Source of the DNA: Eubacteriales bacterium SKADARSKE-1
GTDB taxonomy: Bacteria; Bacillota; Clostridia; Oscillospirales; Acutalibacteraceae
Assembly (NCBI GenBank): GCA_030920305.1
Contig: JARLUB010000001.1
Location: 62,001-126,000 of the forward strand
Reading direction: 5' to 3'
DNA length: 64,000 nt
The stretch's first letter is position 1, and each line of letters opens with the position of its first letter. Below are positions 12,822-30,181 of this stretch, in pieces. A program made the position numbers and the translations under genes. The notes under the pieces were generated by a model. That model made no database searches. It was not told the DNA's origin and saw only the letters and a list, made by a program, of their open reading frames with translations.

Positions 12822-14135
12822 CTATATAGTATGAGTTTGAGTTATAGACTTAACAATTTCTAACTTGATTGCTGGAATAATAACATTAGCTATAGACCCG
12901 ATTATGCTTAATATGCTAGTGCTAATCAACATTCCGGTTGAGACGATTGTTGTAAAAGGATCGAATTTAACTGGACAAGTTCCGTTCTCACCTTCTGTGT
13001 CATCAATGGTTTCTTCACTTATTAAGCCTTCGCCTTCTTTTTCTTGTGTACTGTTAACTTGTAAGTTTTGGATTTGACCTGAGGTTGAAGCTTCGTCTCC
13101 AGCGAAGTTTATAGATGTGTCTGCACCCGAACTTGCAGCTGGGTCTGATTTTAATTTTTGGGCTTGGATTAAGGTTTGAGACTCAGTAGGTTTTAAAGTC
13201 TTAATACGACATGAAGATAGTTCTGAAGCTGCACGAAGAAAGTCTTTTTCAGTTTCAGCGCTATAAGCTTCATGAGCAGCACTTCTCTTATTAACTAAAT
13301 CTTCACAAATCATTGAGGAACTAAGTATCTCTGGTTGAGATTGCTCATATTCTTTAGCTTCTTTAGCATGACATTCCATAAAATCAATTTCTAACTTTCC
13401 TATCATTCTGCAGGGCATATGGTAGTCTCGAGCTTGTTCTTGTGAAAGGTTACCATTATTTCGAACCTCTTCGGAAAACCCAGCAGAACAATCATCTGAA
13501 ACTGCACCTAGCTCATTAAATAAACCTTCACATTTATCATATTCTTGAGCTTTACATTGAAGAAATTTATCATTTAGCAAATCAGCTTTATCTTTACTGC
13601 TTATGATTTGTTCTCTGTTTAAAGGGTCTTGCGTACCTTTATATTTGTCATAAATCCTATCACGTTCAAGGCGAGCTTCCGTTCTTTCATTAAAAAGATC
13701 TTCACAACTTGTTTGTTTTTCATGTGTTGCAGCTGGGTCTCCAGTTTGGGTTTGGCTTTGGTCTTGGCCTCCAGCAGGAACATTATTACCTTCGGTTGAA
13801 ATTTGCTCTGGGTTTTCAGTTATAATATTAGCCCCTAAATACTTGTTTCCAAAATGCAGGGCTGCTGCAGTTGCGGCAGCAGCTAACACTCCACCAGTAA
13901 CTTTTAAAATTGTGCCTTTATTTCTTTGCCAGAAAGATTTTACTTCTAATTTTGTTATGTTTTCTTTAAGATTTCCTATAGCTTCACCTAATTCTATGTT
14001 AGTAGTGATAGTTTCGGAATTTGCTTTTGCAGTAGCTGAAACACTTGTTTCTGCCTCATCAGCAAAAATTGAGATGGCTCCCATGGAACTAATTAACATA
14101 GTTCCAACTAAAATGCTTGATAATACCTTTTTCAT
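12822..14135 (-). CDS. Secreted Cys-containing helical-repeat protein
   Basis: No recognised family. The 437-residue protein has a signal peptide of the same type as its downstream neighbours (MKKVLSSILVGTMLISSMG, cleavage likely after IFA), a Gly/Ala-rich membrane segment (LKVTGGVLAAAATAAALHFG) and a Gln-rich linker. A charged helical region carries three related units, each opening with C(E)(D/G)L(F/V)N (CEDLFNER, CEGLFNEL, CEDLVNKR) and closing with a second Cys (FLQCKA, FMECHA, LSSCRI), suggesting paired cysteines. After a Ser/Gly-rich stretch, a final hydrophobic segment lies near the C-terminus. It is the promoter-proximal gene of the minus-strand block. RBS GGGGAAATTAAAC precedes the ATG. 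Confidence 0.72.
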   Translation of the reverse strand: MKKVLSSILVGTMLISSMGAISIFADEAETSVSATAKANSETITTNIELGEAIGNLKENITKLEVKSFWQRNKGTILKVTGGVLAAAATAAALHFGNKYLGANIITENPEQISTEGNNVPAGGQDQSQTQTGDPAATHEKQTSCEDLFNERTEARLERDRIYDKYKGTQDPLNREQIISSKDKADLLNDKFLQCKAQEYDKCEGLFNELGAVSDDCSAGFSEEVRNNGNLSQEQARDYHMPCRMIGKLEIDFMECHAKEAKEYEQSQPEILSSSMICEDLVNKRSAAHEAYSAETEKDFLRAASELSSCRIKTLKPTESQTLIQAQKLKSDPAASSGADTSINFAGDEASTSGQIQNLQVNSTQEKEGEGLISEETIDDTEGENGTCPVKFDPFTTIVSTGMLISTSILSIIGSIANVIIPAIKLEIVKSITQTHTI

Positions 14136-28324: not shown

Positions 28325-29140
28325 TTAATTTGCTTTTTTTAGGGCCATTATTTTAGGGATTCTAACCATGTATTCTATGTATTCTTCGGTCTCTCGCTGT
28401 TCTCTTTGCGCCTTTATTCCGGAAAGGTTCATAGTATCTATCGCTTTGTTTATAGTGTTCATAAATATTCTTAAATCTTTAATCACTATTGTTTTATGTG
28501 AATTTAAGCCCTTTTTATTTTTATGCTCCAACATTGAGTCTATTAATATTTCAGATTTTTGAACATTTAATCCTTTTAAAATAATCCTGCTAAGCGCTAC
28601 TTCCCGAAGTTCTATATCGTCTACTTTTAAAAGTGCTCTTGCGTGTCGTTCAGTAAGTCCAGCACCTACTATTTTTTGACGTTCTTCTTTTGTAAGTTTT
28701 AAAAGTCTTAATTTGTTTGCAATAGTCGATTGTTTCTTTCCTAATTTTTGAGCAGCCATTTCTTGAGTCATTCCGCTTCCATTAATAAGTCTTTGTATCC
28801 CTTCTGCCTCTTCAAATGGACCTAAATCAGCTCGCTGGAGGTTTTCAAGTAGAGCAAATACTGCTGATTGTGTTTCGTCGCAATCTAAAATTATGCATGG
28901 TACACTTTTAAAACCCGCCATAATTGAGGCTCTAAGGCGCCTCTCTCCTGCAATTAGCTCATATCTTGATGCTAAAATTTTTCTAACCGTTAGTGGCTGT
29001 AATATTCCGTTTTCTTTTATGCTTTGAGATAAACTTTCTAGTTCTTGCTTTGAAAAATGTGTTCTAGGTTGCGCTCTATTAGATTCAATTTGAATTACCG
29101 GTACACTTCGTATTTTGTCCGTTGTTTGGTTAAAAAACAA
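28325..29140 (-). CDS. noc: Nucleoid occlusion protein Noc (ParB paralogue)
   Basis: Noc is a ParB-family DNA- and membrane-binding protein that blocks division over the nucleoid. The 271-residue protein has GERRLRA, ENLQRADLGPFEEAEG and a KKQSTIANKLRLLKL helix-turn-helix. It is called Noc rather than ParB because it directly follows rsmG, the conserved Noc place, and a separate parB lies beside parA. It starts with TTG (29138-29140), six bases after GGGGGGA. I found no Noc site (ATTTCCCGGGAAAT) in the window. Confidence 0.85.
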   Translation of the reverse strand: MFFNQTTDKIRSVPVIQIESNRAQPRTHFSKQELESLSQSIKENGILQPLTVRKILASRYELIAGERRLRASIMAGFKSVPCIILDCDETQSAVFALLENLQRADLGPFEEAEGIQRLINGSGMTQEMAAQKLGKKQSTIANKLRLLKLTKEERQKIVGAGLTERHARALLKVDDIELREVALSRIILKGLNVQKSEILIDSMLEHKNKKGLNSHKTIVIKDLRIFMNTINKAIDTMNLSGIKAQREQRETEEYIEYMVRIPKIMALKKAN

Positions 29141-29340
29141 ATTTATCCCCCCTATTTAATTAAACTCCTATTATTTAATTGTTAAAAATAAAGATTTTTA
29201 TTCTTTATAAATTAAATATAGCATGTACTTTTATGGACTTATTAGCTTTTTGTGTAAGGGGAAAAACATATCTTTTTGATGGATTTATTATTTAGTTGTT
29301 AAATGAAGGAAACGTAAAGTCAATATATGAGATAAAAAGT

Positions 29341-29457
29341 TAGAGGGCGGCGATACGATTTTTCGTATTTGCCAATTGTCCATTTAACTTTATTTTTAGT
29401 TTAGACAATTGGCAAGCGCAAAACTCATATATATGAGTTTTGCACCGCCGCCCTCTA
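29341..29457. repeat. 117-bp cloverleaf-like palindromic element
   Basis: Terminal inverted repeats TAGAGGGCGGCG (29341-29352) and CGCCGCCCTCTA (29446-29457) enclose three further hairpins: ATACGA/TCGTAT (29353-29368), TTGCCAATTGTC/GACAATTGGCAA (29369-29380 with 29404-29415) and the perfect palindrome at 29418-29443 (GCAAAACTCATAT and its complement). Together they form a four-way junction. The ends are GC-rich in AT-rich surroundings and are bounded by TA, as in TA-targeting miniature elements. The element supplies the TAG stop of rsmG. It may be a MITE, a structured RNA or a terminator. Confidence 0.85.
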
Positions 29458-30168
29458 CAGTGCTTTTTTCGATATTTTAGATCCGTATCTTGGGTATTTG
29501 TCTGGAGTAACTCCAACCTTTTTAATAACAAGCACAGATCTTGCATTTTCGCCTGGCAAACTAAAACTATCGACTTTTTCAATTTTTCCGCCAAGTATAT
29601 TAATTGCAGTTTTAGCGTTTTCTAACTCTATATCTAAACCCGGACCTTTTTGCGCAACAAAAGCACCACCTATTTTTACAAACGGAATGCAGTACTCTGA
29701 CAAAACATTTAACGGTGCAACTGCCCGTGAAACAGCAATATCAAATTTTTCTCTGTATTTTTTATTTTGTGCTGCTTCTTCTGCCCTGCTATGAATTAAT
29801 TCGGCATCTAATTCTAATTCATTCAAAAGTTCACGCAAAAAAATTAACCTTTTATTAAGACTATCAAGCAAAGTAAGCTTTATATCCGGTCTTGCTATCT
29901 TAAGTGGCATTCCGGGAAATCCTGCTCCTGTACCTACATCTATCACTTTTGCGTCTTTGCTCGCATCAACACAACTCAAAATCGTTAAACTATCAAGAAA
30001 ATGCTTTATTATTATCTCTTGAATATCGGTTATAGCAGTAAGATTCATTTTTTCATTCCACAAAATTAAAAGTCTTGCATATTTTTCTAACCTATCCAAC
30101 GCTTTCTCATCTAAAAAAATACTATATTCTTTAAAAACCTTATTGGAAAAAAGTTTAAAATCATTCAT
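29455..30168 (-). CDS. rsmG: 16S rRNA G527 N7-methyltransferase
   Basis: RsmG (GidB) methylates G527 of 16S rRNA with S-adenosylmethionine. The SAM-binding motif IDVGTGAGFPGMPLKIARP is near residue 70. The in-frame ATG at 30168 lies 6 bases after GGAG and is preferred to the ATG at 30180, giving 237 residues. The C-terminal KYPRYGSKISKKAL is normal for the family, but the stop codon lies inside the terminal repeat of the palindromic element at 29341-29457. It follows mnmG by 13 bases. Confidence 0.93.
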   Translation of the reverse strand: MNDFKLFSNKVFKEYSIFLDEKALDRLEKYARLLILWNEKMNLTAITDIQEIIIKHFLDSLTILSCVDASKDAKVIDVGTGAGFPGMPLKIARPDIKLTLLDSLNKRLIFLRELLNELELDAELIHSRAEEAAQNKKYREKFDIAVSRAVAPLNVLSEYCIPFVKIGGAFVAQKGPGLDIELENAKTAINILGGKIEKVDSFSLPGENARSVLVIKKVGVTPDKYPRYGSKISKKAL

Positions 30169-30181
30169 AAATTTCTCCATT

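Follow-up and report, generated by a model that had tools for sequence, protein, structure and literature searches.

The 117-base element at positions 29341 to 29457 of the window (the whole 64,000-nucleotide stretch of Eubacteriales bacterium SKADARSKE-1 DNA that was analyzed) can fold as a DNA cloverleaf of four arms and lies at the end of a housekeeping gene, rsmG. By analogy with a related genome that is rich in elements of the same layout, we consider it probably a non-coding dispersed palindromic repeat, DNA-level and similar to REPINs and MITEs, with a four-way layout. Below we describe the element, its copies, the changes recorded in the copy-rich relative, and the competing readings.

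A four-armed palindrome at the end of rsmG

The initial annotation, made from the same DNA, had described outer 12-bp repeats around three hairpins, one of them a perfect 26-base palindrome, and this pairing was confirmed (Table 1). The outer arms are GC-rich, and the junction is tight: 0 unpaired bases precede the first and second inner arms, and 2 precede the third. The proposal that the unit could fold as a four-way junction in DNA or RNA also held. Positions 29330 to 29470, folded as RNA, gave −66.8 kcal/mol and a z score of −12.0 (plus strand); positions 29338 to 29460, folded as DNA, gave z scores of −13.5 on the plus strand and −15.8 on the minus strand. None of 200 shuffles folded equally well in any of the three cases. 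The junction is therewith foldable as DNA on both strands and as RNA on the plus strand. As had likewise been claimed, the element supplies the rsmG stop codon: the last three bases at the outer edge of the repeat form it, and the corresponding end triplet of the left outer arm is its counterpart on the opposite side.

Table 1. Parts of the element and the two neighboring genes, in window positions
Feature	Position	Strand	Remarks
Left outer arm, TAGAGGGCGGCG	29341..29352	.	12/12 paired with right outer arm
Small hairpin	29353..29368	.	6 pairs, loop TTTT
Central arm	29369..29415	.	29369-29380 with 29404-29415, 12/12 paired; 23-nt AT-rich loop
Third hairpin	29418..29443	.	perfect 26-base palindrome
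Right outer arm, CGCCGCCCTCTA	29446..29457	.	includes 29455-29457, the rsmG stop codon (minus strand)
rsmG (name from the initial annotation)	29455..30180	-	open reading frame and relatives; gene end inside the element
noc (ParB-like)	28325..29140	-	next gene downstream of rsmG

Further copies within the genome and among relatives

The initial annotation had allowed for a single-copy structure, but the element proved to be multicopy in its own genome (G000), where three copies have sequence in common and a fourth has the same layout. The second copy (C1:208,511), found by BLAST and pattern searches, has the outer sequence GGGCGGCG and the central arm TTGCCAATTG..CAATTGGCAA, as in the window copy, and differs from it in the loops and side hairpins; its lowest-energy fold is a longer alternative and not the cloverleaf, although the four-way pairing is present nonetheless. 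A covariance model of these two copies, run on both strands, gave the third (C1:182,811). The core TTGCCAATTG of the central arm is common to the window copy and C1:208,511, and CCAATTG is common to the window copy and C1:182,811; the three copies lie at unrelated places, with outer and central sequence in common. The fourth element (C1:191,742) was identified by a finder that is blind to sequence and reads only layout (outer stem, three arms, and short junction, with Watson-Crick pairs only), and it has no similarity to the other three at an E value of 0.01. This finder gave four matches in 848,884 of the 1,383,341 bases of the genome, against 0, 0, and 0 in dinucleotide shuffles. It supersedes an earlier finder based on the lowest-energy fold, which gave three matches in 464,000 bases and missed C1:208,511.

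All four elements lie between 91 and 209 kb on contig C1; one overlaps a stop codon (−2 bp), and the others lie 10, 12, and 41 bp behind one. They also fall within about 110 kb of a sign change in GC skew near C1:102 kb, perhaps the replication origin, and their clustering around it may be due to chance. Two other candidates were rejected as copies: C12:26,315, which is similar to the window element, looks coding and has no cloverleaf, and L010 is a chance 30-bp match.

A covariance model matched 4 of 301 genomes of the family, namely, the genome of origin, G165, G136, and G204, the last at one AT-rich hairpin that we do not count as an element; full-length model matches came from only 3 of 136 genera. 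Model R1 matched 1 of 394 genomes of the order (G000), and model R2 matched 2 of 399 in the family (G000 and G136), missing G165. Absences in these large searches are weak because only 8 to 12 candidates were scored per genome, and divergent elements were missed. In the 119,914 bases of G165 examined there are two elements, the one that the model matched and a second unrelated to it in sequence, placed 25 and 27 bp past a stop codon; a 14-base match between the first of them and C1:208,511 is the sole similarity between genomes in the compared set. The layout finder detected no element in 99,839 bases of a congener of G165 (G046) or in 68,723 bases of a congener of G136 (G001). Applied to one stretch from each of 40 further genomes of the family (606,758 bases in all, of which three stretches, 5,776 bases, were N only), it gave two matches, both judged not to be elements. 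Of these two, L152:17-239 (G009) reads as a CRISPR array whose strongly palindromic repeat set off the finder, and L222 had the lowest allowed finder score in GC-rich DNA.

In the first 400 or so bases behind rsmG itself, none of the 10 relatives examined has a four-way element. A motif search placed a Noc/ParB-like N terminus next after rsmG in five of these; at L246 (G022), a ParA-like gene stands directly behind rsmG, without noc. Searches of plasmid records, with the window copy and one G136 copy as queries, and of phage records, with the window copy, returned no match, and the G136-type pattern occurred 0 times in viral contigs. Viral contigs with GGGCGGCG..TTGCCAATTG (n = 27) were discarded as carriers, the finder giving 0 matches in their 243,028 bases. 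Hairpins of the form TTTGCCAATTG..CAATTGGCAA, in 27 stretches of named genomes and two viral contigs, were discarded as copies in the same way, the finder giving 0 matches in the 182,987 bases of the stretches from named genomes. Several of these stretches matched model R1 weakly, the best being L043 (E value, 8e-6), and six loci that were inspected (L028, L029, L033, L043, L048, and L049) proved to be single hairpins, coding repeats, or contig-end palindromes.

Stems and loops in a copy-rich relative

G136 carries 108 elements, counted by the motif at either end, in a total of 505,894 bases; they are mostly intergenic, with 8 overlapping an open reading frame call of at least 90 amino acids (example loci are L085 to L104 and L125 to L136). 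A sample of contigs picked by number and not by match held 26 elements in 162,995 bases, or about one per 6 kb, which extrapolates to some 350 in the 2.2-Mb MAG. The stricter four-way finder passed 69 elements in the same 505,894 bases and 0 in shuffles, and the earlier lowest-energy-fold finder had given 78 matches in 342,899 bases. Between the end motifs, 88 of the 108 elements measure 160 to 177 nt, 17 measure 94 to 148 nt, and three measure 243 to 245 nt. Side hairpin A is mostly GCGCATC..GATGCGC, side hairpin B is mostly CCATAT..ATATGG, and the central arm in most copies is GCAAAATAAT..ATTATTTTGC. The full repeat is about 375 bp, extending some 90 to 110 bp to each side in AT-rich sequence with loosely inverted ends. 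About 73 extra bases occupy the hairpin B loop at L098:18516-18760, L130:3167-3411, and L130:11968-12210, and a copy at L132, near 13318-13359, lacks nearly everything between the side hairpins, as if it had been lost by slippage within the palindrome.

The elements are oriented 55 one way and 52 the other, with one unclear. Tandem, convergent, and divergent gaps hold 57, 18, and 21 of 96 elements, close to the background of 163, 35, and 37 of 235 gaps in general; this placement is not terminator-like.

In 40 aligned copies, 98.6% of 1518 cells are paired; two-sided changes account for 37 cells, a one-sided change (G-U) for 1, and unpaired positions for 21. Ten short copies gave 23 two-sided and 4 one-sided changes in 280 cells. 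The covariation score of the 40 copies was reached by 0 of 500 shuffles, a test in which related sequences can beat shuffles without any structure, and the number of pair types (9, versus 11.0 in shuffles) was not above that expected. Loops were parsable in 85 and 95 of the 108 elements. Read in stem orientation, the B loops are GAA in 19 and TTC in 18, AAA in 15 and TTT in 11; the A loops are CCTTTGG in 15 and CCAAAGG in 9, CTAAAAG in 4 and CTTTTAG in 6, and rarer classes are partly one-sided (CTTTTTAG, 3:0; CGTTTAG, 3:0). When 165 pairs whose copies are alike to at least 85% were compared, the B loops agreed in 46, stood inverted in 43, differed otherwise in 75, and were unparsed in 1; the A loops agreed in 35, stood inverted in 19, differed in 64, were self-complementary in 2, and were unparsed in 45. 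Comparison of 86 central regions gave 214 direct matches and 0 inverted ones. Only at L092:119-291 does the core run opposite to the flanks; inversion appears in 9 of 383 flank matches, and these nine all involve L092:119. Flipping thus appears to be frequent in the small hairpins and rare in the larger arms. The outer stem and central arm are almost invariant, which suggests recognition by sequence.

An RNA stem is expected to change by way of G-U steps. The two-sided jumps with hardly any G-U, together with loops that stand both ways, therefore lead us to read the unit as DNA and not as RNA. Polymerase template switching homogenizes the arms of inverted repeats and inverts their spacers, according to the available text of PMC8604942, and part of the covariation in G136 may therefore arise without selection. 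Because the G136 family has its layout, and not its sequence, in common with the own-genome family and the window copy, this DNA-level evidence is carried over to the latter by analogy. The set carries a warning, in that covariation alone could have made these elements look like structured RNA. As a natural set, the 108 copies also document the behavior of DNA hairpins inside living cells, and they give a means of measuring template switching and cruciform formation in bacteria.

Competing readings and known systems

If the window element is a dispersed DNA repeat, its whole body, a nested palindrome, could form a compact four-way junction on either strand. Its hairpins would form either as cruciforms or where replication forks expose single-stranded DNA; template switching by the polymerase within them would keep the short arms perfect and flip the loops, and a putative enzyme might spread copies in trans. 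The core common to unrelated places, the same layout in unrelated sequence, the absence behind rsmG in relatives, and the DNA-type changes of the small hairpins in G136 point toward this reading. Pointing away from it are the lack of duplications in G136 and of a close relative with an exact empty site, the full-length model matches in few genera, the transfer of the DNA-level evidence by analogy, the one-sided loop classes, the pair types not above shuffles, and the lowest-energy fold of C1:208,511. The location of all six own-genome and G165 copies at −2 to 41 bp past a stop codon, and the TTTTT near the window copy, count against it as well, since both would suit a 3′-end function. Y1 transposases (PF01797), the only family of transposases searched, matched in 5 of 16 genomes, with 15 matches in G136 and 5 in G046; the own genome and G165 had none, a further point against. 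Of three Y1 loci inspected in G136, two (L235, and L231 near 1904) lie about 65 to 70 bp from an element core, and the third has no element in its 3.3 kb. The Y1 genes at L235 and L231 are of the IS200 type. G136 also has 24 unpaired element ends.

The strongest competitor, itself unlikely, is a transcription terminator or mRNA 3′-end element for rsmG and other genes, similar copies being reused behind several of them; the stem would end transcripts or protect their 3′ ends. The short distances to stop codons in G000 (−2, 10, 12, and 41 bp) and G165 (25 and 27 bp) suit such a role, as does the window copy, in which TTTTT stands two bases past a GC-rich stem, read in the rsmG direction. Against it, the other three own-genome copies have no T run directly behind the stem, and in G136 divergent gaps hold 21 of 96 copies, versus 37 of 235 in general, with even orientation. 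A terminator scan reported no site at the element, in a search that allows loops of 3 to 8 only and so excludes such structures.

Also doubtful is a class of elements recognized by shape, in which a putative junction-specific enzyme would move or maintain any cloverleaf DNA, with the small arms flipping; we raise it because unlike elements (C1:191,742 versus the other three, and the G165 pair) have the same tight junction. We give still less credence to palindromes that template switching during replication makes and maintains in place, without the unit being dispersed. The two-sided changes and loop inversion in G136, and elements of unrelated sequence within one genome, are what that process might leave, but the outer and central sequence recurs in three own-genome copies at unrelated places, and G136 holds many copies of a repeat of about 375 bp.

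The initial annotation had offered, as an alternative, a structured RNA in the interval between rsmG and noc; such an RNA, whether a small RNA or a leader, is quite improbable. The RNA fold and the strong covariation in G136 would fit it, but nothing like the element is conserved behind rsmG in the 10 relatives, G136 shows 1 G-U cell against 37 two-sided ones, and its loops are inverted freely. Rfam 15 at the gathering score gave 0 families in the window, and only rRNA and tRNAs at 7 further loci; below that score, only plant and animal microRNA models appeared, far under their cutoffs. An IS630-type MITE with TA target duplication is very improbable: the window copy starts and ends with TA, but this pair is also simply part of the stem, the other three own-genome copies have no TA on both flanks, no length or offset of target-site duplication stands out in 104 G136 copies, and inspection of the own-genome copies by eye found no duplication, which may have decayed. 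Of the annotation's inserted miniature element, then, the dispersed family and the absence behind rsmG stand, and the TA targeting does not; its fallback of a plain terminator is weakened, although the TTTTT of the window copy still fits.

Returning to the dispersed palindromic repeat, we compared it with known systems. A search of the open-access literature for cloverleaf or four-way-junction repeats in bacteria found no such family in the titles and abstract openings of the matches listed. Inverted terminal repeats of the AAV type are likewise GC-rich nested palindromes with small side hairpins and two orientations. They have fewer arms and form the ends of virus genomes, whereas the window element has more arms and lies inside a chromosome.

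Prokaryotic MITEs, in the available text of a review (PMC10969869), are short and non-coding, with inverted repeats, intergenic AT-rich sites, and a stable fold, and the present elements resemble them: those of G000 and G165 are 95 to 134 bp, non-coding, and have outer stems of 9 to 12 bp. Unlike MITEs as described there, they have a four-way layout, and neither a parent insertion sequence nor direct repeats were found, although direct repeats of MITEs wane with time. The main text of that review uses none of the words cruciform, cloverleaf, and hairpin.

REP sequences and REPINs, according to the part of PMC3116915 available, are randomly placed, extragenic, present in many copies, able to form hairpins in single-stranded DNA, and subject to compensatory two-sided changes. 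The likeness lies in extragenic placement, many copies, inverted-repeat hairpins, and compensatory changes. In copy number it applies to G136 (108 in 505,894 bases, 8 of them overlapping an open reading frame call); G000 has only 3 related copies, and the few elements there give the impression of a population that is small or dying out. A REPIN consists of two inverted REP units in one long hairpin, whereas the present elements have three separate arms, a central one and two dissimilar side hairpins, all enclosed by an outer stem. REPINs go with a RAYT (Y1) transposase, whereas G000 and G165 have no Y1 gene. REP sequences carry the tag GTAG or CGTC at one end (from the title of PMC3733652), and the own-genome copies start with TAGAGGG, GGGGGCG, GGGCGCG, and TGGGGGC. 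Finally, the arm homogenization and loop inversion of the G136 hairpins resemble template-switch mutations as described in the available parts of PMC8604942 and PMC8794818; those cases are mutations at single inverted repeats, whereas here they run through a dispersed repeat family.
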